Source of the DNA: Hericium rajendrae
Taxonomy: Eukaryota; Basidiomycota; Agaricomycetes; Russulales; Hericiaceae
DNA length: 64,000 bases
Direction of reading: 5' to 3'
Assembly (NCBI GenBank): GCA_033439255.1
Contig: CM065878.1
Coordinates: 2,046,001-2,110,000, forward strand
Position numbers and translations under genes: made by a program. The notes below the pieces were generated by a model. The model worked only from the letters and a program-made list of their open reading frames with translations, was not told the origin of the DNA and did not search any database. This document shows, in pieces, positions 3,163 through 63,722 of the stretch; positions within the stretch are counted from its first letter, which is position 1; every line of letters begins with the position of its first letter.

Positions 3163-3843
3163 GTCTAAGTATAGTTGTGTACCGTGTATCGTACACGCAT
3201 GTCAGCCGAGCTCTGTCAGTCGTATCGATTCTTGTGGTTCTGATGACTTCAACTCGGGTTTTCGGACTGCCATGTAATTGAGTGTTGAGTGGGGTTCTGG
3301 TGTAAAAGTACTATGCTATAATCAGAGATCCGGCTTTCTTCGGACAGTTGGACAGAATTGTTTTGCTATGCGCTGGTCCATTATTTCCTTTCAATGGGCT
3401 CGCTCAAGGGCTCGCTTGGGTTGACGCAGGATGTATGATACACAACAAGTCACACGGCTCGATTGATCAGAGAGATCGTTTGTGTATACGCCGCCAGACG
3501 GTACTTGGTGAGTACAGCAACAACTGTCCGTGAGACAGAATAGACTTCACGGCACAAACACGCGTTTTGTGCTTCACTGGCACGCCCAGCATCTGTATTA
3601 TAAGACGCATATTCGAGATTTCAACGACTCGGGAAGATGCTGAAAGTAGAAGGCTCAAATAATCGAATAGCCATTGGTCCGACGGTGGTCCGACGGCGGC
3701 TATCACGGCGCTTTCCGGGCGCGATCCGGCGGCAAGTGGTAGTCCATCGGACCTTTCGGACGCCATCGATTTGGTAACTTGGAATCATGGTTTGCAGAAA
3801 ACATCACAGGCATGCAGCTTCTTCGTCCGAAGCCTCATTGCAG

Positions 3844-3915: not shown

Positions 3916-5977
3916 ATGTCGACAAACGTGTCAAACACTACCATAGGTTCAGGGTTTGATATTCACGGCGAACAGACGCACGCCAGCCCGGACATTCGTC
4001 AACATGATGCACCAATAGTTCAGGCAGAGCAAGAGAAGCCTGATGGAAAAGGCATTCAACAGGATGCACCTGCAAAGGAAGTCTCGAAAGAGACACCCTT
4101 CAGCATTTTCAAGTCGAGCGAGAAGTGGTTCATCGTCACCATGGCATCCCTCGCAGGCATATTCAGGTTTCGTATTGTTCTTCATTATTACAACCCCGCA
4201 GTCCCTAATTTTTGTATAAGCCCTCTGACAGCGAACATATATTTTCCTGCTATACCAGTCATGTCCACTGAGTTCCACAAGTCTGTGGAGTTAATTAATC
4301 TGACCGTGACCGTCTACATGATCATGCAAGGCGTTAGTGCGTATTTGGTCTGCTCATTTCATGAAGAAATTGATCTTTATTTCTGACATTGCCAGGTCCC
4401 ATGTTCTGGGGAACTATGTCCGATCGATGGGGACGCAGGCCCATGTTCTTCGGTTGTATCCTCCTTCTGGCCTTATCGTGCGTCGGGTTGGCCCTTACGC
4501 CAACGTCAGACTATTGGCTCTTGATGCTCTTACGTTGCATACAAGCAGCTGGATCGGCAAGCACCATAGCTCTAGGTCAGTATCCTTACACGCACATGCC
4601 GTCTTGTGATCGTCTTCACTGAAGAAATAACATACGCAGGTGCTGGCGTGATCGCCGATATCGCCACGCCTGCTGAGCGAGGTGGCTTCTTCGGTCTCGT
4701 CAGCTTCGGGCCGATGGTGCGTTTAATTTTCTATTACTTTCTTACACATATTCACACTCATTTCAGGTTGGTCCGAGTATCGGTCCTGTCATTGGGGGTG
4801 CTCTGACGCAGGGCCTCGGTTGGCGGTCCGTAGTCTACTTCACTGTGCTTGACTACCAGTATCTGATAGCATCATTAGGTCGATTTTCTGGTTTCTATGT
4901 ATTTCGTCCGGAGTCTGTCTTGTGGCAATATTCCTGTGAGTCCTTCACCCGTTACATCGTGCATGGTAGCTTGATCTGAGGCTCATTGTAGATTCTTACC
5001 GGAAACACTTCGATCAATGGTTGGAAATGGGAGTTACCTTCCCCCGTTGTTCTGGAGGCCCATGATTCCTCTTGTCGGGAAAGGTCGCCAATCTTCTGCA
5101 TTGATCGACAGGCCACCAACCCGGCCTTTCGACAACCCACTGCGTCTCTTCCTGTATCCCGACGTCGTCATCTTGCTTGTCTTCAACGGCGTCGTTTACG
5201 CCACATTTTATGGAGTCACGGCGTCCATCTCCATCTTGTTCGAAGACGTCTATCCGTTCCTTAACCAGACGGACATCGGGCTGTGTTTCCTCGGAATCGG
5301 CGGCGGCATGGCGATCGGCAGCCTGTTTACGGGAAGGGTGTTAGATCGAGAGTATCGCTCAATTGAGAACAGGTTGATACGGAGGGCAAGTTCGATCCGG
5401 AGAAGAAGATGAGCGCTCGTGAACGCGCGTCGCAGGGCGATTTCCCGCTGGAAGTGGCGCGGCTGCGTCTCGTTCCCGCGTATCTCTTGATCTATCTTGG
5501 GTGCATCATAGGCTATGGATGGTGTCTTGAAGCCAGAGTCTCGATCGCAGGGCCCCTGATTCTATCAGTCGTCAGTGAGTAACATGTCGCTTCCGTCGTT
5601 GGTAAGTTTTGACATTTTTATCAGTCGGATATGTCCTAGTTTCCGTAATGAACTGCGTACAGACCTTACTGGTCGATCTCGCGCCTGCACAGGGCTCGTC
5701 TATCACTGCATGCGTGAGTACTCCACTCTACGGAAACGATGTTGATATCAAGAGATTTACTGAGAATGATGGCAGAATAATCTCGTCCGTTGCTGTCTCG
5801 GCGCCGCCATGGTTTCCGTAATCAATATCATGATAAACTCCCTCAATGTTGGGATGGACTTACGTCGTGCTTGCTGGCCTATGTGTGGCTGTCACGCCAT
5901 TACTATGGGTAGAGTTTCGTTGGGGTCCGGTTTGGCGGGCACGCCGTCTGCAGAGACAGCAGGCAGGACAGCATTAG
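3916..5977 (+). CDS. MFS multidrug/polyamine-type transporter (DHA1), first of two local copies
   Basis: The N-terminus MSTNVSNTTIG and a hydrophilic tail precede the first membrane segment (EKWFIVTMASLAGIFR). DHA1 hallmarks follow: FHKSVELINLTVTVYMIMQG, then the motif A region GTMSDRWGRRPMFFG, then ALTPTSDYWLLMLLRCIQAAGSAS and the FLPETLRSMVG loop. Next come the second-half segments (IGLCFLGIGGGMAIG; LIYLGCIIGYGWCL) and the terminal TLLVDLAPAQGSSITAC. Eight or so short introns are implied. These plasma-membrane proton antiporters export drugs or polyamines; the substrate is unknown here. Two frame slips disturb an otherwise clean gene: one in the central loop near 5,380-5,395, beside an AGGG run, and one near 5,853 at a GGG run, before the last membrane helix (WTYVVLAGLCVAVTPLLW). 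Both look like base-count errors in G runs. The frame after the second slip ends at TAG 5,975-5,977. Confidence 0.8.
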
Positions 5978-6314
5978 ACGGGTCGGACGCTCCGATCATA
6001 CCCCGTACTTTAATATCACTTGTAATACTCGATCATCCATCCGTAGAGAATATGGATCTGCACTCATGTAGACCGACATTGGAATACATCGGCATTTGTT
6101 GACTTTTGGGTTGACGCCATGATGGCGGTGCGTCCTGTTGAACCACGCCGACTTCTAAATTGGGAATGGTGTCACGACTGAACTTGGCTCCGTTCCCCTT
6201 GGCACGGACGCATAATCTAATTGGTATATAGAGTTTTCAGACTTGCCCCCGTACTGTGGCCAGGTGCTTCGCTCGCTTCACGACCAACGCCCAAGGGGAA
6301 AGTATGTATATGAG

Positions 6315-7439
6315 ATGTCGGCAGGGTCATCGCTGACGTTCAATCGTTCGTACAATTCTCTTAATCCACGTCGCTCGATGCTCATCAATACCTGTTCCCG
6401 CCCCTTTTCACAGAAACCGTCCGAGGCATCACGGAGTTCCGTAAGATTTCCACTTCGTCATGTTTTTGATGCATGGAAGCTGATGAAGGCGGATGGCTCT
6501 CGGTCACCAGTCGAAGTTGCCATACACACGATCTTGTATGTTCGGCATATTTACCCACCCGACCTCTTCATCCGCCGGAAGAAGTACAACACGCCGGTAT
6601 ATCAGTCTCGCCATCCTACTCTGAATGAATACATCAATGGCGCGATCAAGGCGGTTCAAGAGGAGCTCGTCTTGGTAGGTCCATGGATCAGTCCGTAGTC
6701 GCGCGGAACTAAAACCACCGAGCAGGGAAATGTGGACAAGATCGTCGTTATCATTAAGGACAAGGATGAAGTCGCGCTGGAACGATTCATCTTCTCTATA
6801 CAGAATATGATCGAGGTGGAATCATTTAATAAGGACACGAGGTAAGAATTTTGCCACAATACCTTTGCATGGTAGCTGAGAGTACGAAGCATCGACGAGG
6901 CCATGCCTGCATCTGCTCTCGGACAGTATTTCCGTTCTTTCCTGATCAAGCTGAACATGATCGAGGCTCAATTGGGTGAACTACCATTCAATGGTGAGCA
7001 TCCGGAAGAATATTATTAGATCTTCAATGAACGTGACACTTACCTTTGCAGAGACCAATACATTCGCAATCGTCCTGGAACTGCAGAGATGATAAACCCC
7101 ATCTACAGGTTCCGGAAAGGTACGGACTTGCTCCCTCTGACTTTTTTCTGAGTATTGACTCAGTGTGGCGGTTCTCCTCAGGATAATCCCCCACCATGGA
7201 TTCCAGCTGTAACAGAGCACACGACGTCGGGCACCTCTGATGAAGCTCAGCTCCAGATGGTTCGCGCTGTCGACACAGGAATCATTAATGTTTGACTGCT
7301 TCCTTTCTGCATGCAAGCGTCCGCTCATATTCTTTTTCAGCTTTCGCTGGCAGTTCAAGAATCGGAAGACAAAATGCGCCTTCTTTCCGATACTGACGAA
7401 TCAAAATCCAAGGGAAAGGGAAAAGAGCGTGCCATCTGA
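6315..7439 (+). CDS. REV7: REV7/MAD2L2-type HORMA protein (DNA polymerase zeta accessory subunit)
   Basis: I reconstruct eight exons: 6315-6345, 6414-6440, 6511-6674, 6726-6841, 6881-6993, 7052-7119, 7182-7289 and 7341-7439. They sum to 726 nt, an exact multiple of three. Junctions rebuild the HORMA core: LTFNQTVRGITEFLEVAIH, then TILYVRHIYPPDLFIRRKKY, HPTLNEYI, DKIVVIIKDKDEVALERFIF and FLIKLNMIEAQLG. The C-terminal part contains PPPWIPAVTEHT, the strand that closes over clients in HORMA proteins, and a KSKGKGKERAI tail. REV7 bridges REV3 and REV1 in translesion synthesis and acts in other DNA-damage complexes in the nucleus. One oddity is that two adjacent in-frame stops (7,090-7,095) interrupt exon 6. 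Reading one base over restores DDK before the frame returns, so a pair of compensating indels, real or technical, is likely. The 39-nt fourth intron is unusually short. The gene sits between the two MFS copies. Confidence 0.85.
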
Positions 7440-8047
7440 ATCAGTGGTCTTCCTCAAAGAGACGCAGACAGCAATACGCATCGATAGGCGGGAATTGCGT
7501 TGATGGAGCATATACGATCCAGATAACAATATTGAAGAACGTGTCAAATGGACGGAATCTCACCTGGACACGTCATACAATATTTTCCATAAGACATCGT
7601 TGCTCGTGCTCGTTCTTACGTGCCAATCCCTCCGAATGTTACCGATGATGATGATGCTCCAGCGAGCAAGATGCGCAAAAGTGATCGAGTTCGAGATTCG
7701 AATGGGGAGCAGTGATTGCCAGATCTTTCAAAGGTGCATGTGGGCAGGTCCGATATCAGGCGTCGGCATTGGCCCCGCATCTGGGATCGAGATCTACGAT
7801 GGACACCGGCGGCTATTACGTCAAGTTAGTCCCGGCAGACGCTGATTGGCTGAGAGCCTCCCATTCTACTTTCGCGATGGGACTCTGCCAACTTGGTTCA
7901 GTTTTCATCACGTATGCTGTTCTATCTACGCAAAATGATTCGTGGGCACCGAAGAAACATGTCGAAACGTTCACGTACGGGTCGTATATATGGGCTGCGT
8001 CCTTTCCGGGGCCTACATCAATTCACCCACCCTTTTCTTACATCTTC
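7440..8047 (+). other. Spacer between REV7 and the decayed MFS copy
   Basis: There is no convincing gene over roughly 600 bp. One plus-strand open piece at about 7,591-7,714 would encode ARSYVPIPPNVTDDDDAPAS followed by a basic stretch and a stop. It resembles the tail of a nuclear protein but has no start or recognisable exon chain. The TATATATGGG element at 7,985-7,994 belongs to the following pseudogene. Confidence 0.4.
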
Positions 8048-14764: not shown

Positions 14765-17700
14765 CTAGTCCCGTATACGACCAGTGGAAGTTGTGTACAG
14801 ACGGGCGGCAATGTTCATGCTTTGCAATTCCTACATAGACAATGAGCAAAAATTTAACGCAGACAAGCTCGAATCAACGTACCTGGAACAGCAGCTTGGC
14901 AGCATAAGGAATGTAAAGCTGAGAACACGCCGTCTTGTTTTTGCATGCTCGGCATTCGAAACTTTGCTTTTTGAGGTTAGCAATAGCTGTGAGACCGCAT
15001 CTGTGAAACGACAAAGGTTAATACCAGGTCTAGCAAGAAATGGAATAATCACGTACATGTCGCAAACATGCAAGCGGTAAGCATCACTGGCGTCGAACAG
15101 GCGCTCCTTCAAGAAGGCTGCGACACCATGCGAAATCATACAATCACGTTCCATCTCTCCGAAACGCAGACCACCGTCTCGACTACGACCCTCCACAGGC
15201 TGTCTGGTCAAGATCTGCACCGGTCCTCTTGCACGTGAGTGGATCTTGTCATCTACCATATGTTTCAAACGCTGGTAGTACGTAGGCCCAAGATAGACCT
15301 GCGCCTGCAGTTTTCGTCCAGTATGGCCGTGATACATAACCTCAAGACCACGAGACTGGTAGCCCTGCTGCCTCAGGAAGGTTGATACAGACTCCACAGT
15401 GAGATCCGTGAATGGCGTAGCATCACCCTCGTTACCGATGAGCGTCGCGACCTTCGACAGCAGCGCCTCGACCAGATGTCCGATGGTCATACGGGACGGG
15501 ATAGCGTGAGGGTTGATGACGATATCAGGAGTGATACCCTCTGCAGTGAAAGGCATGTCCTCCTGGCGATACGTGATACCAATGGTACCCTTCTGACCGT
15601 GACGAGACGCGAACTTGTCGCCGATCTGAGGAACACGGGTCGAGCGGACCCGGATCTTGACGAACTTCTGGCCTTCCGAGTTGGTGGTCATCAGAACTTG
15701 GTCCACGATACCATTTTCTGTGCTCTTGAGCGGCGTCGACACGTCCCGACGGGTGTGGGTCCGTGTCCTTTGGCCGAGTTCTTCGCTGTCTGGAGGTATC
15801 GGCGCAGTCTTGCCGATGATGATATCTTCACCGTTGACACCAGTTCCAGGAGCGATGAGGCCATCATCTTCAAGCTTATCATATGTCCCATGCTTCATCC
15901 GCAATGTCGTCTCCCGCGTAGGCTTCTCGAACTCCTCGAGCTGCTGAACACCGCTCTTCTTCTCCAAGTCCATGTAGCTCCTGTAATAGATACTACGGAA
16001 GAGACCACGATCGATGGAACTCTGATTCATGATGACGGAATCTTCCTGATTATAGCCGCTGTAGCAAAGAATAGCCACAATGGCGTTCTGACCAGCAGGG
16101 AGTTCACGGAATTTCAGATATTCCATTGATCGGGTCGTGGCAAGCGGCTTTTGCGGATAGTAAAGAATGTTCGCCATCGTGTCCATGCGAACCAAGAAAT
16201 TTGTGAGGTAGATGCCCATGGCTTGTTTACCCATGGCTGATTGGTAGGTATTACGAGGAGACTAAAATAGCGTGTCATCATACGATCTCCATATATCAGT
16301 AGAAAGGCTACATACCTGATTGTGGTCGGGGAACGGAATGATACTGGCACAAATGCCGAGGATCATACTTGGATGGATCTCGCAATGCGTCCAGGTATGG
16401 GTATTGACAATCGAAGAAGCCTTCAATCGAGCAGCAGGATCAAATTCGGTTTCACTCTCAAGAGGATCAATGCCGGCGCTCTTCAACCGCGAATTCTCGA
16501 GGTCCTCGGGCGTCATACAGATCATGACTGTCTCTTCCTCTTCTGCGTCAAGCAGTTCGATGATACCGTTTTGGATCAGTTGTTCCCACTTGAAGGGGTC
16601 GCCATTGTCACTGAAGCCGTCCCGGAGCCACTTCGTATGTTTCTTCTGCAAGGCAAGCTGCTGGTTGTTAACGATGAACAGCGGCCGACAAACTCGTCCA
16701 GGATCGGTATACATCCGCAGCTCTCGCTCGCGAACGTCGCGAACAATGGAAACCTCAGGGTGAAGATCGTCCTTCCGCCGCAACTTTTTGATGGTGTTGA
16801 TCAGGTTGCTCGGATCTCTGTGAACGCCCATCCAAACGCCATTCACAAAGATCTTCGTCGTAGGTACCGACGAGTGAGCATTCTCTTCCAGAGATTCCAA
16901 ACCCCACTCCTCCAAGAAGTCAATGATTGGCGCAGACTGGGAGCCGACGGAGATAGTGGCCATGAGCGCCAAGTTCTTGACAAGGCCGCAAGCTTGACCT
17001 TCCGGCGTCTCCGCAGGACAGACCATTCCCCAATGAGTGTTATGAAGCTGTCGAGGCTTCGCAATCTTGCCTTCTCGGCCAAGTGGAGTATTGCATCTGC
17101 GCAAATGCGACAGTGTGGAGGCATACGTGTACCGGTTGAGAACCTGGGAGACACCAGCCTTGGAAGACATAGACTTCTTCTGGTCACCCCAGTTGCCGGT
17201 GGCCAACGAGTATTTCAAGCCGTTGGTGATCGTATTATGTTTGATCGCAAGGTTCAGATTGAACTCTTTATGACTCTCGACACACTGAGGACGGTGAGTC
17301 AGCTTCACATCTTAAGCAATAATGAGTTTCTCACCTTCTGCAGATAGCGGTATACATCTCGCGTCAGTTTCCTGAAAAGCATGCGGAACAGATTTGCGAG
17401 CAAAGGTCCTGCCAGATCAAGACGCTTCTTGCCGAAGTGATCACGATCATCCAGTTCTCGGCGTTCCATAGCTGCAAGTAGCAGTCGATGAATCATGTAG
17501 CCAAAGAAGTAAGCCTTCTTCGACTCCGATCCTTCAGCCATCGAGACGTGAGGCAGCATCTCTTTCTGCAGAATCTCCTGAGCATAGCGAAGACGCCGTT
17601 CGCGCGACAATCCGGTTGTCGTACCACGGTTCCCAATGAAATCCAAAGCAACCTGGACAACATGTCAATACAGCAGAGGAATGAGTAGATGAGTATACAA

Positions 17701-18882
17701 ACCTCGCGGTCTTGGATTACGAAGCCTTCGTCGATACAGGGCTTCAACATCTCGAGCATTTGAGAGTCCTGCATATCGTAGCAAATATGCTCCAAAATAT
17801 CACGATCCGAAATAACGCCAAGAGCGCGGAAAACAACCCAGATCGGGATGTCGACTTTAATGTATGGTATCGTGGCTCTCATGACGTTGCCAGACTGAAT
17901 AGAGTAATCAGTTGAACGTCGGCTTTTAGAGTGCCCAATGATACTCACCGTCTTCTCCTGGCTACGATGGTACATCTTCACCTGGAATTGACTGATCGTT
18001 TTCCCGCCCTTCTCTACGGCAGAGCGAATCTCAGCAAGGAAGTTGATGGGGATGGTTGAGCTTTGGCGAAGACATAGACATGGTTTGTCGCCATACGTTC
18101 TTGAGCAATCAAGACCTTCTCCGAACCATTGATAATGAAGTATCCGCCAGAGTCATATGGGCATTCGTTAAGGTCATAGATGTCTTGCTCTTGAAGCTGT
18201 GTAAGGACACAGAACATCGAGCGGAGCATAATGGGGAGCTAACACGGGGTAAGAAACATGGATATTGCGCAGCTACATCTATAACGCACCTTGCCAATCC
18301 AGACCTTCATCTTATCCTTGTCATCTTCCGGATTATCCTCCAGCTCGACGTCCCAGTTGATATCTCCAGGCTGACCATTCGGATCAGGAATCCCAACTGA
18401 AAACCGTCGCCTCACTTCGAGATACAGTGGCGAGGAATAGGTGAGGTTCCGTAAGCGCGCCTCTTGAGGGAAAACAGGGACGACGGATCCATCGGCCTCA
18501 GTGATGGTTGGTCGAGAGAGATAGACCTGTCCGAAATGAAGCTCGTAGCGGCGCATGACATCGGTTTCATGGCCAGTATGCTGCTCGGCCTGATCCAGAA
18601 TGAGGTCCTGGTTCTCTTCGATGATCTCCTGCATGGTATTGTGCACAAACTCATCGAATGAGTCGAGCTGCTGCCGGACAAGACCCTTCTCCTCGAAGAA
18701 ACTTGAGATGACCGCCCAACAGTCCTCTTGCGTGATTTCCTCATATTCTTCGTCGTACTCCTCTTCATATGCAGTATCGTCGTACGTCGCGGTCTCGCGG
18801 GGAGGGGATGGCTCTAATATGGCACGCAAATGTATAAGAAGTGTACGGAAGAATACGATAGAGCTTGCACACCTGCACTCAT
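14765..18882 (-). CDS. RPB2: RNA polymerase II second-largest subunit RPB2
   Basis: A small first exon gives MSA and splices (intron 18,814-18,872) to [13 protein letters not shown]. Conserved blocks run in order: an acidic N-terminus; [40 protein letters not shown]; a [19 protein letters not shown] region; IPFPDHNQ; and [20 protein letters not shown]. Then come the active-site face [20 protein letters not shown] and the hybrid-binding [20 protein letters not shown]. The C-terminal clamp has paired Cys motifs CDIC and CRAC forming the zinc site. The last exon ends [17 protein letters not shown]. The protein is about 1,240 residues, as usual for the family. It forms half of the catalytic centre of nuclear mRNA transcription. 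No frame problem was seen, which makes it a good internal control for sequence quality. It is also the standard fungal phylogenetic marker (conserved regions 5-7). Confidence 0.97.
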
Positions 18883-19369
18883 TCCGAGCGACTCTCGAGA
18901 TACCAACTCAAATTTGCGACGTGAAGTGGCGTGAACGAACTCCTAAGTCAAATTTCTTCCACAGGGACGCACTGTGGCTGCCAATGACGCCAAAACGTGA
19001 ATTGCAGAGGAGTGACGGGCGACGGCCGTGATGGTCAAGCAGCAAGAGAGCTAGCCGTCGGCGACGCAGCCAATGCAGTTATGACAAAGCGGGCCCTCAG
19101 AGCTGTTGTTTGGCCGTGTTGACGCGACTTTCCATACTCGTCCACTCATTTCCTCCTCGAACCGACCCGATATTGCTCGCGAACTGTGAACTCATTCTGT
19201 GTTTTCAGCTCGAGAGCTTCCTTGACTGATGACGCTATATGAAATAATCTCGCAGACACAGGAGTTCTTTGATCCAGAATTTTCCTTGTTGTGAGTCATA
19301 CGAGTATGGTTTTACATTGTTAAGACACCAAGCTCGCTCATCTACTAGTACTTACGACACACTACCGTC
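18883..19369. other. Intergenic: RPB2 promoter side and 3' end of the kinase-like gene
   Basis: This stretch lies upstream of RPB2 (-) and downstream of the fructosamine-kinase-like gene (-). No coding exon or structured RNA is supported. It should hold the RPB2 promoter near 18,890-19,150. Confidence 0.5.
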
Positions 19370-36552: not shown

Positions 36553-38420
36553 TTACTTAGCCTCCTGCTTGATCGACAGTAGAGGCACCCCTAAGAAGGA
36601 CATTTCGTCGTGAATACCTCTGTCTTTCGACCGTGGCTCATTGCGAGGCGGGTCGAAGGGCGGCTTATCCACGTCAATGGTTGTGATAAAATCAAAGTCC
36701 TGCGCTTTCAGATCGACTGGACTTGTAGCCGGTGACAGTGGCGGAGTGTCCAGCTCGTCCGATGTACTCGGCGAAGCCGACCGAGAGGACGAGAGCGATG
36801 CAAGAGACGGCGTGCGAGACATAGTGAAGGATATCTTCTGCGTAGAGGTGAAGGAGTGGGAAAGTGGTGATGGATATGCATGTCGAGGAGGGGTGGCGAT
36901 GGGGCGACGGTGAGGTAAGGGTGCAACTTTCCGTTGTCTTGGCTGCGATGTTGACAAAGACGGAATGGAAGGTGGGAGCGGCGATCTGAAAGAATTGCGG
37001 GAAGTGCATGGGGCTGGAGATTCAGGCGTTGCAAACGGTCTTTCGGGGGGATTGTGCCACTTCGAAGTTGGCAGAGTTTGTGATTGGGAGTCTGAAGTAA
37101 GAACTCCTGGCGATGTTCGCCTCGGCATAGAGGCCAACCTCCGCTTCGCGACTCCTAGTTCATTGGACGTATTGCAGATATTCAGAGATATCCGCGACTT
37201 TGTCTCCACGGATGGTCGATCGGGTGCTGATTGCGAACGTTCGGGTGTCCCGAAAAACATCTTGCTAGTTACATCTTGCTCAGAGGCTCTAAAACAGGAG
37301 GATGGTGACATCACATGTTCACGTCGCTCCAGATAATCGCTCTTGTGGCCTTCCGCACTGTGCCTTGATTTGATCAGATGCATATCCTGGAGCTTGCCAG
37401 ATAGGATAGTTGATAGCGATTCTGTGGTTTCAATCGAAGGGACCTGCGGAGAGGCTTGAGTTCGTCGAACCCCAAAGAAATCCAGACTCGACGACGAGAA
37501 GGTATCGCGTGGTGGAACATGCGATCGTCCATACTGAACAGGATAGCAACGAGAGGTATTGAGCAGACCGTGCGTGAATGCATCACTAGGCTTCACGGAA
37601 CGTCAAAGCGAGAACAACGTTGATTCACACAAGCTTACCTTGTCGACGCTAGAGAAATTTTTGGTAACTTGACGTGCTAATCCTTGTCGGGTTTGTGGTA
37701 TCGTGACGCAAGCTTCCGTTGAAGTCGGTTTGCGAGTAATAGCCGTGCTCTATGGCTAGTGATCAGAGCGGGACAAAGATCAAAGAAGTCGAACACAGAC
37801 CATCATGGACGTACGCGGTCTCTCGCATATGGCACTCTCCCTTCCTTGGAGGGACACCTGAGCCTACGATGATTTCATAAATGGGCACTTGTGAGTGAAA
37901 TTGTCGGCGAAAGATTGCAATTGTGATCGCCCACCTGTTCTCCAGGACAACGGCGTGCAAAGACTCTTCCTGGACTTCGGTCGAACGGCGACGAAATCCC
38001 CATTCCATGAGAGTACTTCTCAAAAAACGCAACGACCGTTTTGATCATATCCCAAAGAGTGCGCATATAGACTTCAGTCGCTGTGATGCAAAGGCGATGG
38101 GAATTGAAGATCGGGACACCTGAACCGGCAGGTACTTGTCTGCATGCATAGATGACATGCCGTACTTTGGTCTGCGACACCTCTCTAAACTGCGAAGCGA
38201 GCTCCTCGTATACTGCCACTAATTGTGCTGCCAATGATGGTTTGAGATTGAGGCAGCTTAGGATATCGCGGATAGATGGTGGTGGTGGCAGAACGAATTC
38301 TGAGCTGAGATCCAGAGGCACTATGACATGATTTGAGCGGGCGACAGCGGGAGATATAGCGTGAGCAATGGCCACGATATGCTGAAGGCTTTGGCGGCTG
38401 GAGGGGATACGGGACGACAT
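36553..38420 (-). CDS. HD2-class mating-type homeodomain gene, homeodomain region disrupted
   Basis: The gene is divergent from HD1 with a 236-bp gap. The N-terminal part, from MSSRIPSSRQSLQHIVAIAH, has the HD2 dimerisation pattern: LPPPPSIRDILSCLNLKPSL, AAQLVAVYEELASQFREV and EVYMRTLWDMIKTVVAFFEK. The C-terminal ~340 residues are one open frame with the Pro/Ser/Arg-rich character of HD2 tails (RQRKVAPLPHRRP, SLASLSSSRSASPSTSDEL) and end LLSIKQEAK. Between them (about 37,640-37,990) I find no WFxNxR recognition helix in any frame. What remains are fragments reminiscent of helices 1-2 (DNFTHKCPFMK; CPSKEGRVPYARDR) in shifted frames, and an HRAR piece after a candidate acceptor at about 37,755. 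Frame slips alone cannot restore the missing Trp-Phe codons. Either helix 3 has been deleted, or the allele is extremely divergent. HD2 proteins normally pair with HD1 of the other mating type. Confidence 0.65.
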
Positions 38421-38656
38421 GGAGAGTGGTTGGGGAGACGCTCACTTAGGTGCGTCGATTAGTATTTGATCTTTTGTCGTGGTTTGAATTTGCCAGCCGC
38501 ATACTGCCGATGGACAATGCGGAGTTTAAAATCATTGTGGTTGCCGAGCAAGCCGGTTCATTGTTCCCCATTGATGGTAATGTCATTGTGCGAGCGCTCC
38601 ATATAACTCGGTGGTCCCACGAAACACTCTGCACATATCTCCGTCCACCTCCAGCC
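38421..38656. promoter_or_regulatory. Divergent HD1/HD2 promoter
   Basis: These 236 bp separate the start codons of the two mating-type genes and must carry both promoters. Fungal HD pairs are typically expressed from such a shared bidirectional region. The plus frame of HD1 stays open through part of it (38,450-38,656), but the conserved protein start is MSNESLRLRF at 38,657, so I take the extra open frame as non-coding. Confidence 0.5.
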
Positions 38657-40762
38657 ATGTCCAACGAAAGCCTCCGTTTACGTTTTCGCCGAGCTGAATC
38701 GGATTTTCTGGCTGCCTTTTCTAATAGCGGGGATGTTTCTACCTCTTCAGAAACTTGGGCCACTCTCCTCCACGACTTCTCAATCGCTGTCAGTTCTCAA
38801 GAGCTAGACTCTACCACTGTTTCTCTCGCACACGCGACCGCGTCCCGAATCGCCGTTTTGGCAGACACCTTTCTGCATCTGCATCTTGAATCGGAGAAGA
38901 GTTGGAGAGCAATGCAAGATGATGTCGACGAAATTCTGTCCCACTCCAACGAGTCTGGTGCGCTGTTGTCTCAATATCGCCGGTCGCGAGCTAATTTTTG
39001 TTAGTTACACCAACAGATTCTCTCAATGCCGTCTGCCAGAGCTGGCTTGTTCAGCATCTCCACGATCCGTACCCATCTTCCACCCTGAAGTCAGCTATAA
39101 GCGAACGCTGCAATGTTCCTTTGAAAGATGTTCAAGGCTGGTTCGCCGATGCTCGACGTCGTATTGGCTGGACGGCATTATCCCAAGAAAAGTTCAATGG
39201 TTCCCGTCGAGCTACATCAGAGGCTGCCTCTCGTGCATACTCTGGGGACGCCTCTGATCAAAACTTGCTACTCGACATGCGACGTGCCTTCACCGCCATC
39301 AAGGCAAACGCTTGTGCCCTGTCTAGCCCCCAACGTACTTCTGGATGCCCATCGGAGTCGCAAGACTCTCCAGCACATACATCGGGCAGCAGGCCATTGC
39401 TCAATGTTTCGAAGGAGGAATCAGATGGAGACAGCCCGACGCTGCTCTCCCACCCATCATTCCACGACAGCTTCACACTGAGCTCCTCGATTACGTCTTC
39501 GATTTGCCTATCGGCCGACGAGGAGGAAGATACAACTCCTCCGCCCCCGATCGCAGGTCGCAAACGTCGACTGGATCTGTCCACGGAGAATGAAGAAGGC
39601 TTTGAATTAGCACCACCTGCTGCGACAAGACCCATCAAACGTCATCGGTAAGTTTGATATAATCCGTCATTGGTCATTTGTCCTGAATCCTGTCTGCCAT
39701 TAGATATATGTGTTCGATGGCCGACACAAGTGCCAATGAGCCGTCGATGCAACCTCTAACACCGGGCGAAGGGGTGCAACGCACTCAACCTGACACACCT
39801 AGTGCTTCTACCCCTGCGCACTCTACGACCAGGAGTTCGCCAGCGCCCACATCGTTTTCTCCCCTCATCGTTTCTACTCCATCTGCTGAAGCCACCGACA
39901 ACATATCCTGTATAGCGGATTCCGCCGCCGTTGTCTCGATATCTCCTCGAAAACGTCGACTCTCTGATGCATTTGCAGGTAATTCGCCCAAACGACCGCG
40001 GGGACCAACTTCGGCGCCTCGGAGGCAGGTGGTGTCGGATCCCCTGCCCACCGGTCTCGGTTTCGTTGGATCTGAATTCCATATCCTGGAAGAATGGTTG
40101 CAATCGAGTTTTGATATACCCCAAGCAATTGAACTCGGCGACATGGATTTTTCTCTTCCCTATGATGTGGAGCTCGCCACAATCGCCGCAGAGTCAAACG
40201 ACTCTACGCTCTCGCCATCTTCTAAAGGTGTGCTCGTTGTAATTGTACTGTTCAAAGCACTAACGTATATCTCGGACCAGTCTCATACGCTTCCGAGTGT
40301 CATGTGTCGGATGATGACTTGGTGTCAGTGACACCTGAGGGCTTTGATTTCTCGGCCTACAACTCAGATGTTTCGCTTGAGGCCGCCTTTGGCTTCGAGA
40401 ATAACTCTGAAGTCGCAACTTCAGACGGCTCCTCTGCATCGTCGCCATCTTCAACGGGCTCGTATTCCGAGTTGTCGGATTACGGGCTCCCGGACAACAC
40501 TTCAAACGTGGATTGGACACAGGACTGGAGCCAATTCCTAAACATCCTCGACTCGCTTGGTTCATCGCCAACCTCATCACAATCATCGTTGTCCGATTTG
40601 TCGCCTCTATATCCAACTGCGGTAGACGCTGCATCTCAACCGAGCTCGGATGATGTCATCCAGACTCTGTTTGGGGTGGACTCATCGTTCCCCTCATCGG
40701 ACCTTCTTTGCGATATTGGGGGATTCCCGTCGCTGCATACGTCTCTAGAAGCGATCTTCTGA
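38657..40762 (+). CDS. HD1-class mating-type homeodomain transcription factor
   Basis: Exons 38657-38957, 39005-39647, 39704-40227 and 40281-40762 give 649 residues with every junction in frame. Residues 1-100 (MSNESLRLRFRRAESDFLAA) form the specificity/dimerisation region. The atypical HD1 homeodomain occupies about residues 101-160: SLNAVCQSWLVQHLHDPYP, then SAISERCNVPLKDVQGWFA and DARRRIGWT, with the WFxxARRRIGW recognition helix intact. Basic clusters downstream (GRKRRL, IKRHR, PRKRRL, KRPRG) fit nuclear localisation signals supplied by the HD1 partner. The last 160 residues are acidic/Ser-rich (LVSVTPEGFDFSAYNSD; SPTSSQSSLSDLSPL), as in transactivation domains. HD1 enters the nucleus as a heterodimer with a non-self HD2 and switches on dikaryon development. 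It is convergent with MIP1, 523 bp away. Confidence 0.93.
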
Positions 40763-41285: not shown

Positions 41286-43789
41286 CTAATGTCTGCCCGG
41301 AGCAGCGACCTCATCTTCTATCCGCCACCTCCCGACCTCCTTCATCGCCTCCGCATCCCCGCTCGCTAACTCCGGCGCATCTAAAAGCGCACCGACCATC
41401 GCCCACGGGTCCTCCGCCCCTCCATGCCTTAGCACCTCGCGCTTATACTTCTCGCCCGTCTCCCTGCTGAGCGGATCGCGCCTAAACACCTTCTGCCACA
41501 CCCGCGACGCGATCGCGCGGTCGAACAGGTACGAGTAGTACGTCGCGCCATATCCAAACAGATGGCCGAACTGCGTCTGCCACGACGTCCCCGGGACGTA
41601 AGGAATGAGTCCACGTTCGGCGTGCAGGCGCGCGAGCGCCGCCGTCGAATCGAACCCAGGCGCCATCGCCTCGGGCGAGTGGTAGATCTGGTCGAGCACG
41701 GCGAGCATAATCTGCCCGTGCGTATCGATGTTGTGGCAGGGATCTTCGTGGTGGTTGCCGACCTGGCGGATGGCGGACTTGTCGCCGGTATCGAAGAGGG
41801 AGAGCACGGTCGGGGAGTTGAGGAAGTGTTCCATGAGGATGGAGGGCAGCTCGACGAAATCGGTCGCGCAGCGCGTGCCGCAGACGTTCTGGTACTCCGT
41901 GCGCCCGATCATGGCTGGCAAATGGGCATCATTAATAAATGGCTCATTGAATGGTAAGAGAAAGTGTGCTAACAATGCATAGCGTGACCCATTTCATGGA
42001 ACAGGGTCAGCACTTCATGCCACTCCAATACGGCCGGGCCCTGCGACTCTAATGGCCGAGCGAACTCAGTCAACAGCACAACGATGGGCAGCTGGAAAAC
42101 GCCATCCGGCATTTGACGGCGGTACGCCGCACCGAACTCGCGCGACGACTCGAGCAGCTGCCTGTGTTCAGCTGGGGGCTCTAAGTCTCCCGCTTCGTCG
42201 TCGTCGTCTGTGCGTCGCGAGCATCGTACGGTATAATGCGCGGCACCGCTGGACTTGCCTCTCCGCGCGAAAAGATCTGTATATATCCAGCCGAGCAGGC
42301 CGTCTTTCTCGTCAAAGACTTCTAGTTTCCGGACATCGGGTGCCAGACCTCGCTTGCTGAGACGTCTGCAGGGCGTAACGTAACTCCATACAGATGCTGG
42401 AATAGTCGCGAGAGCGCCCTAAAGACGACACCGAGCGTCAGGGGAGGCAATGGTATTGGGGGAGCTGGGGGCTCAGGCGGGCAGTAGTAATCTCTATCCC
42501 AGGGCTGCACGACAGGGTATGGTGGGGTGTTGAGATGTGCCTGCTTCCGCATGCTCAAGGTTCGCAGCGCCTTCCGTGCATGTGGCCGCGTGTGATCGAG
42601 CAGTGTATCCAAGAACTGCCGTGCGTTTTCTGTTTCCGAAAAAGCAACGGACACGTCAGCACAGGAGAGCTTGCAGACTTCCAAAGAAGCTACCTGGTGA
42701 TTTCGCCATTTTGTCCGAGAGGGTCATGTGAGCGAAGCTCTGCGAACCCGTCAACCGGGCCAATTGTCCGCGCGCACGTAGCAGTGCTTCCAGAACCTGC
42801 ACCTGTTCCGGCGAGCTCGAGTTTGAAGCCATGTAGACTTTCCGTCTCGGCTCTTCCTGTGGGGCCGATCGCATAATCATCTGGGCTTGCAGCGAGCCAG
42901 GGTAGACGAGCAGGTCTCGCTGTGTGAAGCGGGATTGAAGCTGTAATCGTGAACCGAGTCCGTGATCTTTCAGACCTTTCAGCTCGTCCGGCCGGATGGA
43001 TGCTGGCGGCTTCGCGGTGTTGGCCTGGTTGAGAAATTCCCGTCCAAGGACAAGAATTTCGGAGGACAGGGAAACAAAGCGGTCGCGCTGCTCTGTTGAT
43101 AGATTGACACCCGACTTTTCGAAGTCTCGCCAGAAGATAAGGGCGGTCTGAAGGGCCTCGCGACTGAGTGATTCTCTGACCTCTCTGTCAGACAGCACGT
43201 CTCGAAGGGTCTACGAGGATGAAAGGCATGAGGCATATTTAGTTACGCGTAATTTGAGTCTTTGAGTTGTGATGCGTACCTCGTACAAACCGACATGAGT
43301 GTTCAGTACATTCATGTACTCGCAGAACTGCTCGTATGCCTCGTTAGCACTCTCCACCCATTCCGGGTTCGGGTGCGCGTTGCGGATGAGTTCGGCCAAG
43401 TCAATGACAGAACATAGCATGTCGCTGAGCCTGTCAAGATTCTTGACGACTTTGAACAGCTCATCGCGAGATTGACGCGCTCGGACTATGCGCTCGGTCA
43501 GCAAGTGGGCGCGGAGCAGTGTCGAAAGTGCGAGATCGTGGAATGCCGCGGGGGACGCAAGGGATCGTTGCCCGAATAATCCTATCGATGTCGGCGATGA
43601 CCATCGTGCTGCTCCGGATGGCTGGTCGAAGAACGAGACAAGGTCGGAATCCTCAGCCGAGCTCGGGGCAGCGGTGGCCAGACAGCGTCGCGGCAGGAGC
43701 GCGAAGTCGAGTCTGGTAGTGCCACGGCGATACCTGGGGACGTGTCGCAGGGTGTTTGACAACGACGATCTCGCATTGCGAGCGAGCAT
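41286..43789 (-). CDS. MIP1: Mitochondrial intermediate peptidase (M3 metalloprotease)
   Basis: The start [20 protein letters not shown] (43,789) is a typical Arg/Ser-rich mitochondrial presequence. M3 blocks follow: [60 protein letters not shown] and [20 protein letters not shown]. Near 41,990 is the catalytic [16 protein letters not shown], whose HEMGH is the zinc-binding HExx[20 protein letters not shown] and [20 protein letters not shown] then lead to the end (stop at 41,286). MIP removes octapeptides from imported matrix precursors. A one-base slip lies at a GGG run at 42,338-42,340, within [15 protein letters not shown]; restoring one G joins the two frames exactly. This gene flanks the HD locus in most agaricomycetes, so it anchors the mating-locus assignment. 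Confidence 0.93.
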
Positions 43790-52606: not shown

Positions 52607-54896
52607 CTATTGTTCATCGTAATGTACCCGTCCAAATTTCTTCCATAGACCCGGTGAATACTGCTGGATGCGAGCGCGAACCTCACCCACAAGCTTTTCT
52701 CGCCTCGCGAATTTCATAAGGATTCGCACGCACTCCTCGTCCGGCGCGGGGGTATCGTCCTTGCCCATCTCAACGCACACCGTCCGCGTAGCCTCATCCA
52801 GCTCTCCCATACGGCACAAACACTCCAGCCAACTCTGCCAGTGATGCATGTTCATCACAAAGCCGTCCTCCTTCAGCTGGCGGAAGATCTGCTTGGCAGT
52901 GCCCAGTGCTTTCGAGCGGCCACAGGCATCGAAGATGATGCTGATGCTGGCGTCGATAACCCTGCCGGCGTGGATACAACGAGTTCCAGATCTTGTGCGC
53001 GTCCTCATAGCAGCCAACACGCTGATAGGTATCCATCAATTGGTTGAGAAGGGCGGTGTCGGGAGTAACGGTTGGATCGAGCGATAAGGCGTGGTGCAGG
53101 TCGCGAACGGTGGATGTGAACTGCCGAAATGCATCGCTACCCGCAGCATCCGATAGCGTCGTGTGATTTGCTACCTTGGAGATCTGGCGCAGGATGCTCG
53201 TGTACACTTCCGGCGTGATCGAGTTTCCGGCTTCGCGCATATCTTGGACCATGTTGAAGTACTCCTTCCACGGCGGTATGGTCCTCGAGTCGAATTGCAA
53301 TTCCGCAAACGTGTGGATGACTGTCGAAAAGCCGACTTTGTCCAATGGTGGACGACGATGGCTGCGCACTAGTTCGTAAGCCTCGTAGGCCTCCGAGAAA
53401 CTCGATGATGACTTCATCATCAGGACGACGATAGAAGTCATCGTCATGCTGTCGATGTCTGCGTTATCGACCATGAGCTCTGTCAAAAGCTCCACGGCGA
53501 TGGGGAAGTGCTTGGCCTTGTTCTGCGACGACACCAAGGCCCGAAGTATGCTGTTAGAAATGACAACTCGAGGGCCCGCGGATCTGGTCAGCGTTTTCCG
53601 CTTCTTCGTGTTCTTCTTATTTGGAAGTACGGATAGATATTCGCGATACAGGTCGAGTGCTTTTCGTATGGATGCATCGTCCGTTGGCCGTATCTGGTTG
53701 GGCGAGCATAAGACCCGTACCAGAGGCTGCACCAATTCATAAACGCCGGCATATCCTGCAGCCTTGGCTTCCTCGTATATGGCCAAGGCAGCCCCCACAG
53801 GACGAGATATCAACGCATTGCGCAGCAGGAGTGACCAAACGCGAGGGCCAGCCTTAATTCCAAATTCTTTCTCCAAATAAAATAGATCCCCAGAGTTGCA
53901 AGAAGCCGAGAGAATGACTATGAATGTATCATCGGAAGGTGTAAAACCGTCTTCGACAAACTTTTGATAGAGCTGCGTCGCTCGATGCCGCCCATGCTCG
54001 GTGAAGGCACGAGCAAGATCATTATTACGAGACTGGTCGATAGTTGGGGATGGTGTCGGAGCGAACGGGGACAACCGGACGTTGTACAGTTCAGCGGCTC
54101 GTACAGCCTGCTTCATGCGACCCTTGTCCTCCAAACCGGACTGGATCAAGGAACCGAGAGCTGGATCGGGAGGTAAGCTCAGGCGACGCATCGCGTCGAT
54201 GGCTTGGAGGATCTGGCCAAAATGATCCTTCTGCGTCTCGAATATAGCACGGAGCAGAAATGTGAACGTCTCATGCGTTGGAGGACAGTTTGGAGACATC
54301 CGACCAATGGCCTTCCACATGAGATCAACATTCTGCTGTTCTAGACATTGCTCCAGAAGAAGATCCCAATGTTCATAAGATGGCTTGACTCCTCCTGGAA
54401 AGCTATCCATGTTCCGTATCCAGTTCCACAACGCCATGGTTTGACCGCGCTTAGAGAGATCTTGCAATACAGCCAAATGTAACTCGGGCGTCACTGGATG
54501 CCCGAAGACGTTCGGCAAATCTGCCAAGAGGTCTGGGATGAGGCGTTGATCCTCGACATCTTCCGACGTTGCCAGGAGGGCTAGGGCATCCACTATGTCA
54601 CCCTCCGTGATGACCTTGCGGATTTCATCGACATCCTCGACGTTGGAGCCATCTATAACCGAACGCAGTGAAATATAGGCCTCGCGTATTCCATGTCCAG
54701 AACGTTGTGAAGAGGAAATGCAATCCCATACACGACTCTGAAATTGTTGCGCGAGACGTTCAGTAGATCCTGGCGTCGTAGAGCTTGTGGATGCTGGTCT
54801 ACAATGAATCACGGGTCTCCCGCGAGCATGGTGCAGAACCGGACCAGGATAACGTCGGCATGTTTTGAGCTGCTGCAGGCTTCTGCGTACGAACAT
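52607..54896 (-). CDS. Mitochondrial PPR-like helical-repeat protein
   Basis: The N-terminus MFVRRSLQQLKTCRRYPGPV is a strong mitochondrial presequence. The rest is tandem two-helix repeats of about 35 residues in PPR style: TPELHLAVLQDLSKRGQTMA, CPPTHETFTFLLRAIFETQ, FTPSDDTFIVILSASCNSGD, ITPEVYTSILRQISKVANHT and ALLNQLMDTYQRVGCYEDAH. The exact family member is not recognised. PPR proteins bind organellar RNA to control its processing or translation. The gene is essentially one exon of about 700 codons, but a one-base slip near 52,975-52,990 (in the repeat reading DAHKIWNSLY) moves the last ~120 residues into another frame. There the repeats continue cleanly (AGRVIDASISIIFDACGRS; NMHHWQSWLECLCRMGELDE) to a stop at 52,607. 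Base error is the likely cause. Confidence 0.75.
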
Positions 54897-60061: not shown

Positions 60062-63000
60062 CTATGCAAAAACATGGGCGGTCTCCTCTACGGAAGGGCA
60101 GTCGCACTGAGAGCAGAAGATAAGCATATTACCATTGAAAGCAGTAGTGGTCGAACTTACCACAAGATTCAAGTCGCCGTAGGCTAGAGAAAACATGTCA
60201 AATTAATCAAAAGTACTTTATATGTTGCATATGACACTCACTGTCGTCAACTCTCGAAACAGTCGGCCAGAACTTCTTTTCTCGAAGCCACGACACGGGG
60301 TATACAGCGGTCTGTCGGGAATACGGCCGGTTCCATTCAGCGTCAGACACCGTGATGACGGACAGGGGATGGGGCGCATTTTTGAGCAGATTGCTGTCCT
60401 TCGGTTGTTTGCCAGTAATGATATCTTCGGCCTCCTGACGAATATGAATCATAGCATCGCAGAACCTACAAAAAATCCTTATTAGCGGCCACATCGAGAT
60501 GACAAGCTAGGATGCGTACCGTTCAATTTCTTCCAGGCTCTCGGATTCCGTGGGCTCAATCAGCATGCAGGTAGAAATAGGCCACGAGCACGTCGGCGGG
60601 TGGAAACCATAATCCTGCAGACGCTTCGCAAAGTCGGCCACCTTCAGCCCCGCCGCCTTATCGAACTCCGCAAGATCGATCAACAATTCATGCGCAACCC
60701 TGCCATTCTGGTTTTTGTACCGCAGATTGTAATGAGGCGCGAGACGATGCGCCATGTAGTTCGCATTCAGCAATGCGATCTGTGAGGAGTCCTTGAGCCC
60801 TTGTCCGCCGAGCATCTTGATATAAGCCCATGAGATGAGGAGGATGGACGCGCTGCCGAACGGTGCTGCGGACACGGCATTGATGGCGTTCTTGCCTCCG
60901 GTAGCAATGATCGGGTGGGAAGGAAGGAAGGATGCAAGGTGCTCGGCCACGCAAATCGGTCTGGGGTTGTCACGTCAAACTCATACGAGATTGAGGGTAT
61001 TGGCGATACTTACCCGACACCGGGACCACCTCCACCATGGGGACTAGAGAACGATATTCAGAAAATCGGAAACTGCAAGAGAAAGTATCGCTCACATGGC
61101 AAACGTTTTGTGCAAGTTCAGATGACAGACATCGCCGCCGCAAACCGCCGGATTCGTCAGACCAACTTGAGCATTGAGGTTCGCACCATCCAAATACACC
61201 TTGTCCACCATTGTCATGAATGATTTTGCAAGCCTATTCTCCAGTATCAGCATGTTGCCAGATGCATTCATTGATGGCTGCTTACATCCTGCACACCAGC
61301 TTCAAAGACTCCGAAAGTTGAAGGGTATGTGATCTATGACAGTCAAAAGTTTATCTAGGTCCTGGTCATCTGCACGTACCATGAACGCAGCCAGGTGGTC
61401 CTTATGCTTCTCGGCCTTCGCCTTCAAATCCGCCAAATCAAGGCTTCCATCTTGGAGAGTCTTCACGGGCACAACCTTGAGCCCAGCCATAGCCGCCGAC
61501 TATCGTCAAGTACACTCAGCACCACCACAAGAAAGATCCAATGCACCACATACAGCAGGATTGGTCCCGTGCGCGCTGACCGGGATGAGGCAGACATCGC
61601 GATGTTTCTGCCCGCGAGCCTCATGGAAGGCTCTGATGACGCTCAGCCCGGTGTATTCGCCAGCCGCACCGGAATTGGTTGCAAAGAGCACGCGTGGAAA
61701 CCGGTGATCTTGCACAGATCGTCTTCCAGCTCCTGTATGATCTCTCAGATTTGGCTCTCGTTCACAAGACAATGGACATATGCATACCTTGATCACCTGT
61801 GTATAGCCCTTGACCTGATCCTGCGGAGCAAACGGATGCACGGAACCAAATTCGGGCCAGGTGAGAGGGATCATGCTGCTCGTGCTGTTGAGTTTCATCG
61901 TGCAGCTCCCAAGCGGGGTCATAGCGTGAACGAGCGACAGATCCTTCGATTGCAGATGATGGATATAACGGAGCATCTCTGTCTCTGAGTGGTGCCTGTT
62001 GAATACTGGATGGGTCAGGAACTCCGACGTGCGCGTAAGGTGCTCCGGGATAGCGGCGGGATACGGGCCAGGGAGATTATCCAAACCGAGAGACGAGGAC
62101 CCGACAGCCGAGGTGAAGACGTTCGCAATCCGCAAGAAGTCGATGGGGCCGACACTCTCATCCAATGTGACACCGACATGGCGATCATCTATCCACCGGA
62201 GGTTGACGCCCACTGCTGCCGCTGCCGCATGAACGCGGCTGGCATCCAGGGATGCACCAGTGACATCGAGGGTCAAAGTATCGAAGAATGTATCACTTGT
62301 AGCGACGAATCCGAGTTTTTCGACGGTCGACTTCAGTAGCTGCGTGAGACCATGCACCTTGTTCGCAATGCGCTTGATACCATTGGGACCATGGTAAACC
62401 GCGTACATGGCAGCCATGTTAGCGAGGAGGGCCTGACTTGTGCAGATGTTGCTGGTCGCCTTCTCGCGCCGAATGTGCTGCTCACGAGCTATGCAAATGC
62501 AATTAGGACAGATTGATGAGAGCGCGTATAGCCTACTTTGCAAAGCAAGTCGGTATGCCATTTGTCCGGTGGTGTCCCGACTGCGACCGACGAGACGTCC
62601 AGGCATCTTCCGCTTGAGCTTCTCAGTGCAAGCGAAGAACGCAGCATGAGGGCCGCCATAACCAGCAGGAACACCGAAGCGTGCAGAGTTACCCAAAACG
62701 ATGTCCGCGCCCCATTCGCCAGGTGGTTTGAGCATTGTCAATGCCAGGAGATCCGTGGCAACTACGACCAGAGCACCAGCTTCATGAGCTGATTCTGCAA
62801 GCTTTACAAAGTCCCGAATGCTGCCGTTCACGTCCGGATACTGGACCAAAACACCACACAGATGGGCTCGCAAGGCTTCGTCAGTCAAGATGACGCTAGC
62901 ATCGCCGACGGCCACTTTGATCCCGAAACCTTTTGCGCGAGTTCTCAACACGGAGAGCGTCTGTGGTGAAACACCATTGTCTACGAAGAATACCTTCTTC

Positions 63001-63722
63001 TTGTGGCCTGCAGATACGTAGGCCATGACCATGCCCTCAGCAGCTGCCGTAGCCTCATCCAGAAGAGATGCATTTGCGATATGCATAGACGTCAAAGACA
63101 TGACCATGGTCTGGAAGTTTATCAACGACTCAAGGCGACCTGGGACAAATTTAGCGCAGACCTTTCCTGAAAATGACGTCGTGTCTTACCCTGGGCAATT
63201 TCAGGCTGGTATGGGGTGTACTGCGTATACCAAGCAGGGTTCTCCATGACCTGCCGAAGGAACGATCAGCAACTTCCACAGGGATCGCACGACTTTACTC
63301 ACGTTGCGCAGGATCACAGGCGGGACGACCGCGTTATGGTAGCCCATGCCGATATAGCTCTTGAAGGGCTTGTTCTCGGTGCCTAGGTGCTTCGCCCTCC
63401 TGTTAAGCTCAAGCTCGCTCAAGGGGCCGATAACCTCATTGGTCAACTCCGTGGGAGCGACCCGGACTGTGGGGGGCACGACCTCGTTTACGAACGCGTC
63501 CATGGATTCGTATCCCAGGTGGGAGAGCATGAACGCGGTCTCAGCGTCATCGGGACCGATGTGCCGGTTCGGGAAGGTGTCGAGGGGCGCGAAGAGCAAT
63601 GGCGGCGGCTTAGCGGTCGCGAGCGATCGACGCGCTGCGGGACGGAGAGAATAGAGGTGGGCATGGGCGTAGAGGAAACGATACCTGCATATCGCGCCCG
63701 AGGTGAAGCGAAGTGCCGCCAT
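60062..63722 (-). CDS. GLDC: Glycine decarboxylase P-protein (glycine dehydrogenase), mitochondrial
   Basis: The presequence [20 protein letters not shown] precedes the P-protein proper: [40 protein letters not shown], the [20 protein letters not shown] exon, [20 protein letters not shown] and [17 protein letters not shown]. Then follow [20 protein letters not shown], a conserved PNSGAAGEY region, [17 protein letters not shown], and [11 protein letters not shown] with the PLP-binding Lys. The C-terminus YLNANYMA-type helix, [18 protein letters not shown] and [14 protein letters not shown] end at 60,062. The enzyme decarboxylates glycine in the four-protein cleavage system of the matrix. A one-base slip lies in the PNSGAAGEY motif near 61,673-61,678, where an AAA/TTT run appears one base short. 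Because the motif is nearly invariant, I regard the gene as intact in the organism. Confidence 0.93.

Follow-up and report, generated by a model that had tools for sequence, protein, structure and literature searches.

An HD2 Mating Gene without a Recognizable Homeodomain at the MAT-A Locus of Hericium rajendrae

Introduction

In the mushroom mating switch, strong DNA binding is ascribed to the homeodomain of HD2 (PMC4101180; PMC10739230), and HD1 domains are described as weaker DNA binders (PMC10739230). A degenerate or undetected HD1 recognition helix, alongside a retained HD2 motif, is described for Pycnoporus and Wolfiporia, and in Postia the HD1 motif was not found (PMC4101180; PMC9503964). 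Substitutions in the HD1 motif are reported as tolerable, and even a defective HD1 homeodomain is said to be tolerable, with no loss of function while that of HD2 works (PMC4101180). In Flammulina, haplotypes carrying an HD1 or HD2 without its partner gene are compatible and still form dikaryons (PMC6388666). In a search of mainly open-access literature, mostly by title and abstract, we found no report of an HD2 without a homeodomain, and we do not claim a first description for the gene presented here.

Results

Both ends of the gene are those of an HD2

The window (the whole stretch of 64,000 nucleotides analyzed) is C1:2046001-2110000 of Hericium rajendrae, whose genome comprises 46.77 Mb in 19 contigs. 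The region is an agaricomycete-type MAT-A, with the following features in window positions:

14834-18907, RPB2 pieces
near 25.7-26.5 kb, glycosyltransferase-8 gene, which we read as glycogenin
38420-36553, minus strand, HD2 gene as a whole
36553-37590, minus strand, HD2 C-terminal exon, 345 residues plus stop (ORF 37590-36556)
37591-37996, minus strand, expected homeodomain interval, none recognizable (start derived from the HD2 median, residue 142)
37935-38420, minus strand, HD2 N-terminal exon, 162 residues, putative partner-choice/dimerization domain
38421-38656, common divergent promoter region of HD1 and HD2, 236 bp, between the HD2 ATG (38420) and the HD1 ATG (38657)
38657-40762, plus strand, HD1 gene, with a TALE-type homeodomain match at 39043-39162
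41289-43210, minus strand, mitochondrial intermediate peptidase-type gene (peptidase M3 pieces), MAT-A flank
61509-63185, glycine cleavage P protein

RPB2 is reported to be linked to MAT-A in Wolfiporia (PMC9503964). A 700-codon ORF at 52794-54896 (minus strand) is PPR-like on our reading; a search with residues 1-642 of its product scored 7,994 candidates and found no relative at E 1e-10. On another contig, at C2:4205734-4253418, there are 18 STE3 receptor exon matches, which we grouped as about five pheromone receptor genes; MAT-B therefore likely sits on a contig other than that of the window.

The minus-strand gene is the divergent partner of HD1 and lies beside the peptidase M3 (MIP) gene, as an HD2 gene should. 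We compared it with 120 HD2 proteins, the best 120 of 265 matches to a WFQN-bearing probe. The best match of the N-terminal exon is a Suillus HD2 (E = 4.8e-7, a value valid within the 120-HD2 set only), and an AlphaFold2 model with 22 HD2 relatives has helices at residues 8-26, 61-94, and 107-139 and disorder past about residue 140. HD2-type N-terminal helical dimerization domains span about 130-150 residues (PMC8305134); the match within the set and the predicted helices up to residue 139 point to such a domain here. The C-terminal ORF carries RKVAPLPHRRP, with RK[VI]xPLP at its residue 220. Among these 120 HD2s the motif is present in 14, in 13 of which it lies 209-232 residues behind W48. 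The C-terminus is also rich in Ser and Thr (25.5%, compared with a median of 23.0% in 115 HD2 C-termini). The exon match, the modeled helices, and RK[VI]xPLP at the right spacing together identify the gene at 38420-36553, on sequence grounds, as an HD2 mating gene at both ends. A query joining its N- and C-terminal parts found no relative up to E 10 among about 8,000 scored candidates.

The expected homeodomain is not recognizable

Among the 120 HD2s, the 65 near-complete ones have a homeodomain that starts at a median residue of 142, which places the expected start near 37996. The initial annotation had found no WFxNxR-like sequence in any frame and no TGG-TT codon pair between the two ends, and both statements hold for 37640-37990: The three minus frames, with 2, 4, and 3 stops, contain no WFxNxR-like hexamer, and TGGTT is absent from both strands. 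However, TGGTT is expected only 0.24 times there by chance, and in a homeobox of the same genome (C14:1023001-1030000, local about 3419-3650) an intron splits W48 from F49, so the codon-pair test alone is weak proof. We therefore also searched splice products with up to two introns and an HD2 profile tolerant of introns and frameshifts; neither revealed a recognition helix. Pfam gave no homeodomain in the three-frame pieces read with X at stops.

The HD2 profile has 60 columns, built from 119 HD2 homeodomain segments, and was aligned to DNA with GT-AG introns and frameshifts allowed; controls were 386 segments of 490 bases from other parts of the window. In local alignment the interval scored 16.1 against a control mean of 14.3 (SD = 1.9), with 57 of the 386 controls as high. 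In global alignment, over a near-whole domain, it was matched by 208 controls with frameshifts and 232 without. These scores are at control level, and the fragments of helices 1 and 2 read in the initial annotation are not confirmed. The interval shows no recognizable HD2-type homeodomain, and the absence is real in the sequence. A homeodomain of 60 residues whose helix 3 carries WFxNxR, as expected of an HD2 gene, was not found, so we file the gene as HD2-derived and not as a complete HD2. The earlier suggestion that this allele could not supply a DNA-binding subunit is supported in so far as no recognizable DNA-binding homeodomain is present; this HD2 copy by itself probably cannot grip DNA.

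Detection power was assessed by simulating HD2 domains, each interrupted by two introns and two frameshifts, with recovery defined as a score >20.5 (exceeded by two of the 386 controls). At 0, 10, 20, 30, 40, and 50% substitution, 60, 60, 57, 33, 5, and 0 of 60 domains were recovered. The recovery of all 60 at 10% and of 57 at 20% divergence means that base errors or recent decay should not mask the domain, and either is a very unlikely cause of its absence. Conservation among the sampled HD2 homeodomains is strong: 10 sequences, all obtained via the WFQN-bearing probe, share 20 invariant columns. Since the proteins of the profile were found with the same probe, an unusual HD2 class is under-represented in it. 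Positive scores were 53 for the C14 homeobox and 33 for a C1 homeobox, and only 16.0 for HD1; the profile thus detects HD2-like and ordinary homeodomains and misses the HD1 class.

HD1 itself carries a homeodomain (Homeobox_KN, 47.8 bits; Pfam cut-off 24). Its helix 3, at window position 39139, reads WFADARRRIGW, with Asp in place of the Asn of WFxNxR.

No HD2-type homeodomain and no second copy of the interval were found elsewhere in the assembly. A relocated homeobox was rejected on the first count, the one match on C4 looking like chance, and an origin of the interval from elsewhere within the genome on the second. Homeoboxes on C1, C10, C14, and C16 are unlike HD2 on reading and were discarded as displaced HD2 domains. 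An inverted homeobox was discarded as well (best plus-strand score, 0.9 bits), and Pfam matches under the cut-off, DUF6570 within the N-terminal exon and VraX within a single frame, were taken as chance. Three successive homeodomain stretches lie within about 1.1 kb at C1:1006001-1016000 (local about 5700-7000) and may belong to a single gene with three homeodomains. Two further homeobox genes, unlike HD2 mating genes, are located at C1:2130001-2140000 (local about 5500-7600), about 25 kb past the right end of the window.

Weak matches within the interval

Under a generic homeodomain profile, the unspliced interval scores 1.3 bits, and a two-intron splice product resembling the arm, helix 1, and helix 2 scores 13.8 bits. 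The latter exceeds 20 shuffles (maximum, 7.5) and 132 real segments (maximum, 10.8), and its first part is in a frame other than that of the N-terminus. Two positive controls, the C14 homeobox and one C1 homeobox, reach 93 and 92 bits but belonged to the training set of this profile; HD1, outside that set, scores 23.6. One further segment is suggestive only:

37839-37874, minus strand, NHRRLRCPSKEG, possible remnant of homeodomain positions 51-60, in the N-terminal frame

This segment sits straight behind a TGA (37875-37877). Against HD2 positions 51-60, eight of 930 single-frame controls are as good; with introns and frameshifts allowed, 57 of 386 are. Weak codon scores prefer a second open frame over tiles 38010 to 37695, which, folded as a single sequence, gives a low-confidence model of mostly strand with no homeodomain (pLDDT 49.9). 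W48 and F49 are supplied by none of these three: neither the splice product, nor NHRRLRCPSKEG, nor the second open frame. These weak hints are suggestive and leave space for a homeodomain remnant.

Other candidates were rejected. The HRAR sequence that the initial annotation took for a remnant, and which might be placed in helix 3, is picked out neither by the HD2 profile nor by one built from the region that follows the homeodomain. A spacing from ARDR to HRAR that would fit a homeodomain in one frame is eye-matching and includes a stop. FFEKYSHGMGISSPFDR, considered as helix 1 in the N-terminal frame, has scores reached by six of 70,248 window 19-mers, itself included; in both the HD2 alignment and the model its residues fall in the last N-terminal helix.

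The flanking parts are open

As the initial annotation noted, both HD2 ends are open: Neither the N-terminal exon nor the C-terminal ORF has a stop, compared with 11-17 expected in these two coding parts at 20-30% divergence. Given how often stops occur in the intergenic DNA nearby, the C-terminal ORF would be open by chance with a probability of 4.5e-6. The stops and frameshifts spread over the coding parts that mark a dead pseudogene were not found, and gene-wide decay of HD2 is unlikely.

With GT-AG introns of 44-130 bases, there are no open models with one or two introns and 2,718 with three. The best by splice score encodes 554 residues and no homeodomain, with these inferred introns:

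37845-37934, minus strand, candidate intron 1 of the best open homeodomain-less model
37750-37814, minus strand, candidate intron 2, with a GTACGT donor and a CTGAT branch-like site
37591-37638, minus strand, candidate intron 3, with a GTAAGC donor

Only one of 60 shuffles of the interval permits as good a three-intron model; since the score used for splicing is ad hoc and real splice signals do not survive shuffling, support for this model is weak. The frame is also kept by ten single long introns of 344-527 bases. The length of 554 residues compares with a median of 546 in the 120 HD2s. Together with the ordinary spacing of RK[VI]xPLP, it gives no clear sign that the gene has become shorter, and these comparisons do not favor a simple net deletion. 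Because an open three-intron model exists, a frame slip is unnecessary as well. The initial annotation had proposed a deletion plus frame slips rather than base error. Its dismissal of base error agrees with the power simulation; the deletion and the slips find no support in motif spacing, length, or frame.

Discussion

We give roughly even chances to the reading that this is an HD2 allele without a homeodomain, in a haplotype that provides only HD1 for DNA binding and mates via the HD2 of its partner. The allele would have lost its homeodomain and kept its partner-choice domain at the N-terminus and its C-terminus rich in Ser and Thr, and its product would be at most a dimerizing protein unable to grip DNA itself. 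The haplotype would mate through its own HD1, pairing with the HD2 of a compatible partner; since one active heterodimer suffices, loss of the HD2 homeodomain would be tolerated. This presupposes that the organism carries the sequence, that its HD1 is expressed and suffices, and that a DNA-binding HD2 comes from the partner. The HD2-like ends, the control-level profile score at a power of 57 of 60 at 20% divergence, the failure to find an HD2-type homeodomain or a second copy of the interval elsewhere in the assembly, the HD1 homeodomain above cut-off, and the unpaired haplotypes of Flammulina all argue for it. However, a useless HD2 should show decayed ends, and both are open; the open three-intron model is matched by only one of 60 shuffles; the 13.8-bit partial match and the end-of-domain-like NHRRLRCPSKEG also count against it, as do the Asp for Asn in the HD1 motif and the blindness of the HD2 profile to HD1-class domains. 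A nonfunctional HD2 allele, as the initial annotation considered, is a good reading, and if confined to one allele it would show a haplotype persisting on half of an HD pair. Homothallism, raised at the same time, does not follow: The receptors lie on another contig, and Flammulina haplotypes with unpaired HD genes form dikaryons (PMC6388666). The locus has one HD1, and an HD2-type homeodomain was found nowhere else in the assembly.

The absence of a strongly conserved domain between otherwise open ends might also stem from a structural assembly fault, the homeobox having been lost or exchanged for other sequence while two strongly dissimilar MAT-A haplotypes were being merged or polished, and MAT-A alleles are known to be very divergent (PMC8305134; PMC10739230). 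We consider such a fault unlikely: The interval has no match elsewhere in the assembly, spacing and length are ordinary for HD2, an open splice model crosses the interval, adjoining conserved genes yield long open pieces, and a mix of two working alleles should, we infer, retain the common WFxNxR codons. If it did occur, it would be a warning to check MAT-A homeoboxes in assemblies. Quite unlikely, in our judgment, is a working homeodomain-less HD2 of about 554 residues after splicing that dimerizes with HD1 and activates, the HD1 homeodomain alone reading DNA. The lack of stops in the ends, where 11-17 are expected at 20-30% neutral divergence, the open three-intron model of normal length with its one in 60 shuffles, the intact look of the N-terminal domain in the predicted structure, and the homeodomain-less isoforms of animal MEIS1 would all fit this. 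However, the splice score is ad hoc and real splice signals are lost in the shuffles, HD1 domains are described as the weaker binders (PMC10739230), and the HD1 here has Asp for Asn.

A homeodomain too divergent, or spliced in too unforeseen a way, to be recognized is doubtful, although detection drops to 33 of 60 at 30% and five of 60 at 40% divergence and the HD2 profile misses HD1-class domains. The generic-profile score of 13.8 bits, higher than in any of the 20 shuffles and 132 controls, NHRRLRCPSKEG within the N-terminal frame, and the second open frame preferred by weak codon scores (tiles 38010 to 37695) would suit it; the control-level HD2-profile scores, the lack of a Pfam match, the 20 invariant columns in 10 HD2 domains sampled with the WFQN-bearing probe, and the low-confidence, mostly strand model of that frame (pLDDT 49.9) oppose it. 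Also quite unlikely is a reversed division of labor, in which selection keeps a homeodomain-less, partner-choosing HD2 and the TALE homeodomain of HD1 alone reads DNA, in a lineage whose HD2 is, as part of the same joint reading, spliced around a former homeobox.

Like the MAT-A HD2 genes of other Agaricomycetes (for example, Suillus, Rhizopogon, Pleurotus, and Coprinopsis), the window gene is divergent with HD1 beside a peptidase M3 gene and has a helical N-terminus, a Ser/Thr-rich C-terminus with RK[VI]xPLP, and a normal length; unlike them, it has no recognizable 60-residue homeodomain and no WFxNxR. With Pycnoporus, Postia, and Wolfiporia it shares the feature that one member of the pair has no recognizable recognition helix. 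In the published accounts of those fungi HD1 is affected, whereas here it is HD2, the mirror image. Such a mirror-state locus, if true, would open to direct test the question of which homeodomain reads DNA and how much of the pair can be dispensed with. A single usable gene per pair is also described for Coprinopsis a2-2, the Agaricus footprints, and Flammulina HD-a (PMC8305134; PMC6388666); those cases involve premature stops, truncated N-termini, footprints, or absent genes, whereas in the window HD2 both ends are open and the homeodomain alone is missing. The homeodomain-less isoforms of animal MEIS1 are likewise dimerizing partners without a homeodomain of their own, but they exist beside full-length forms, whereas at this locus the gene itself is without the domain.
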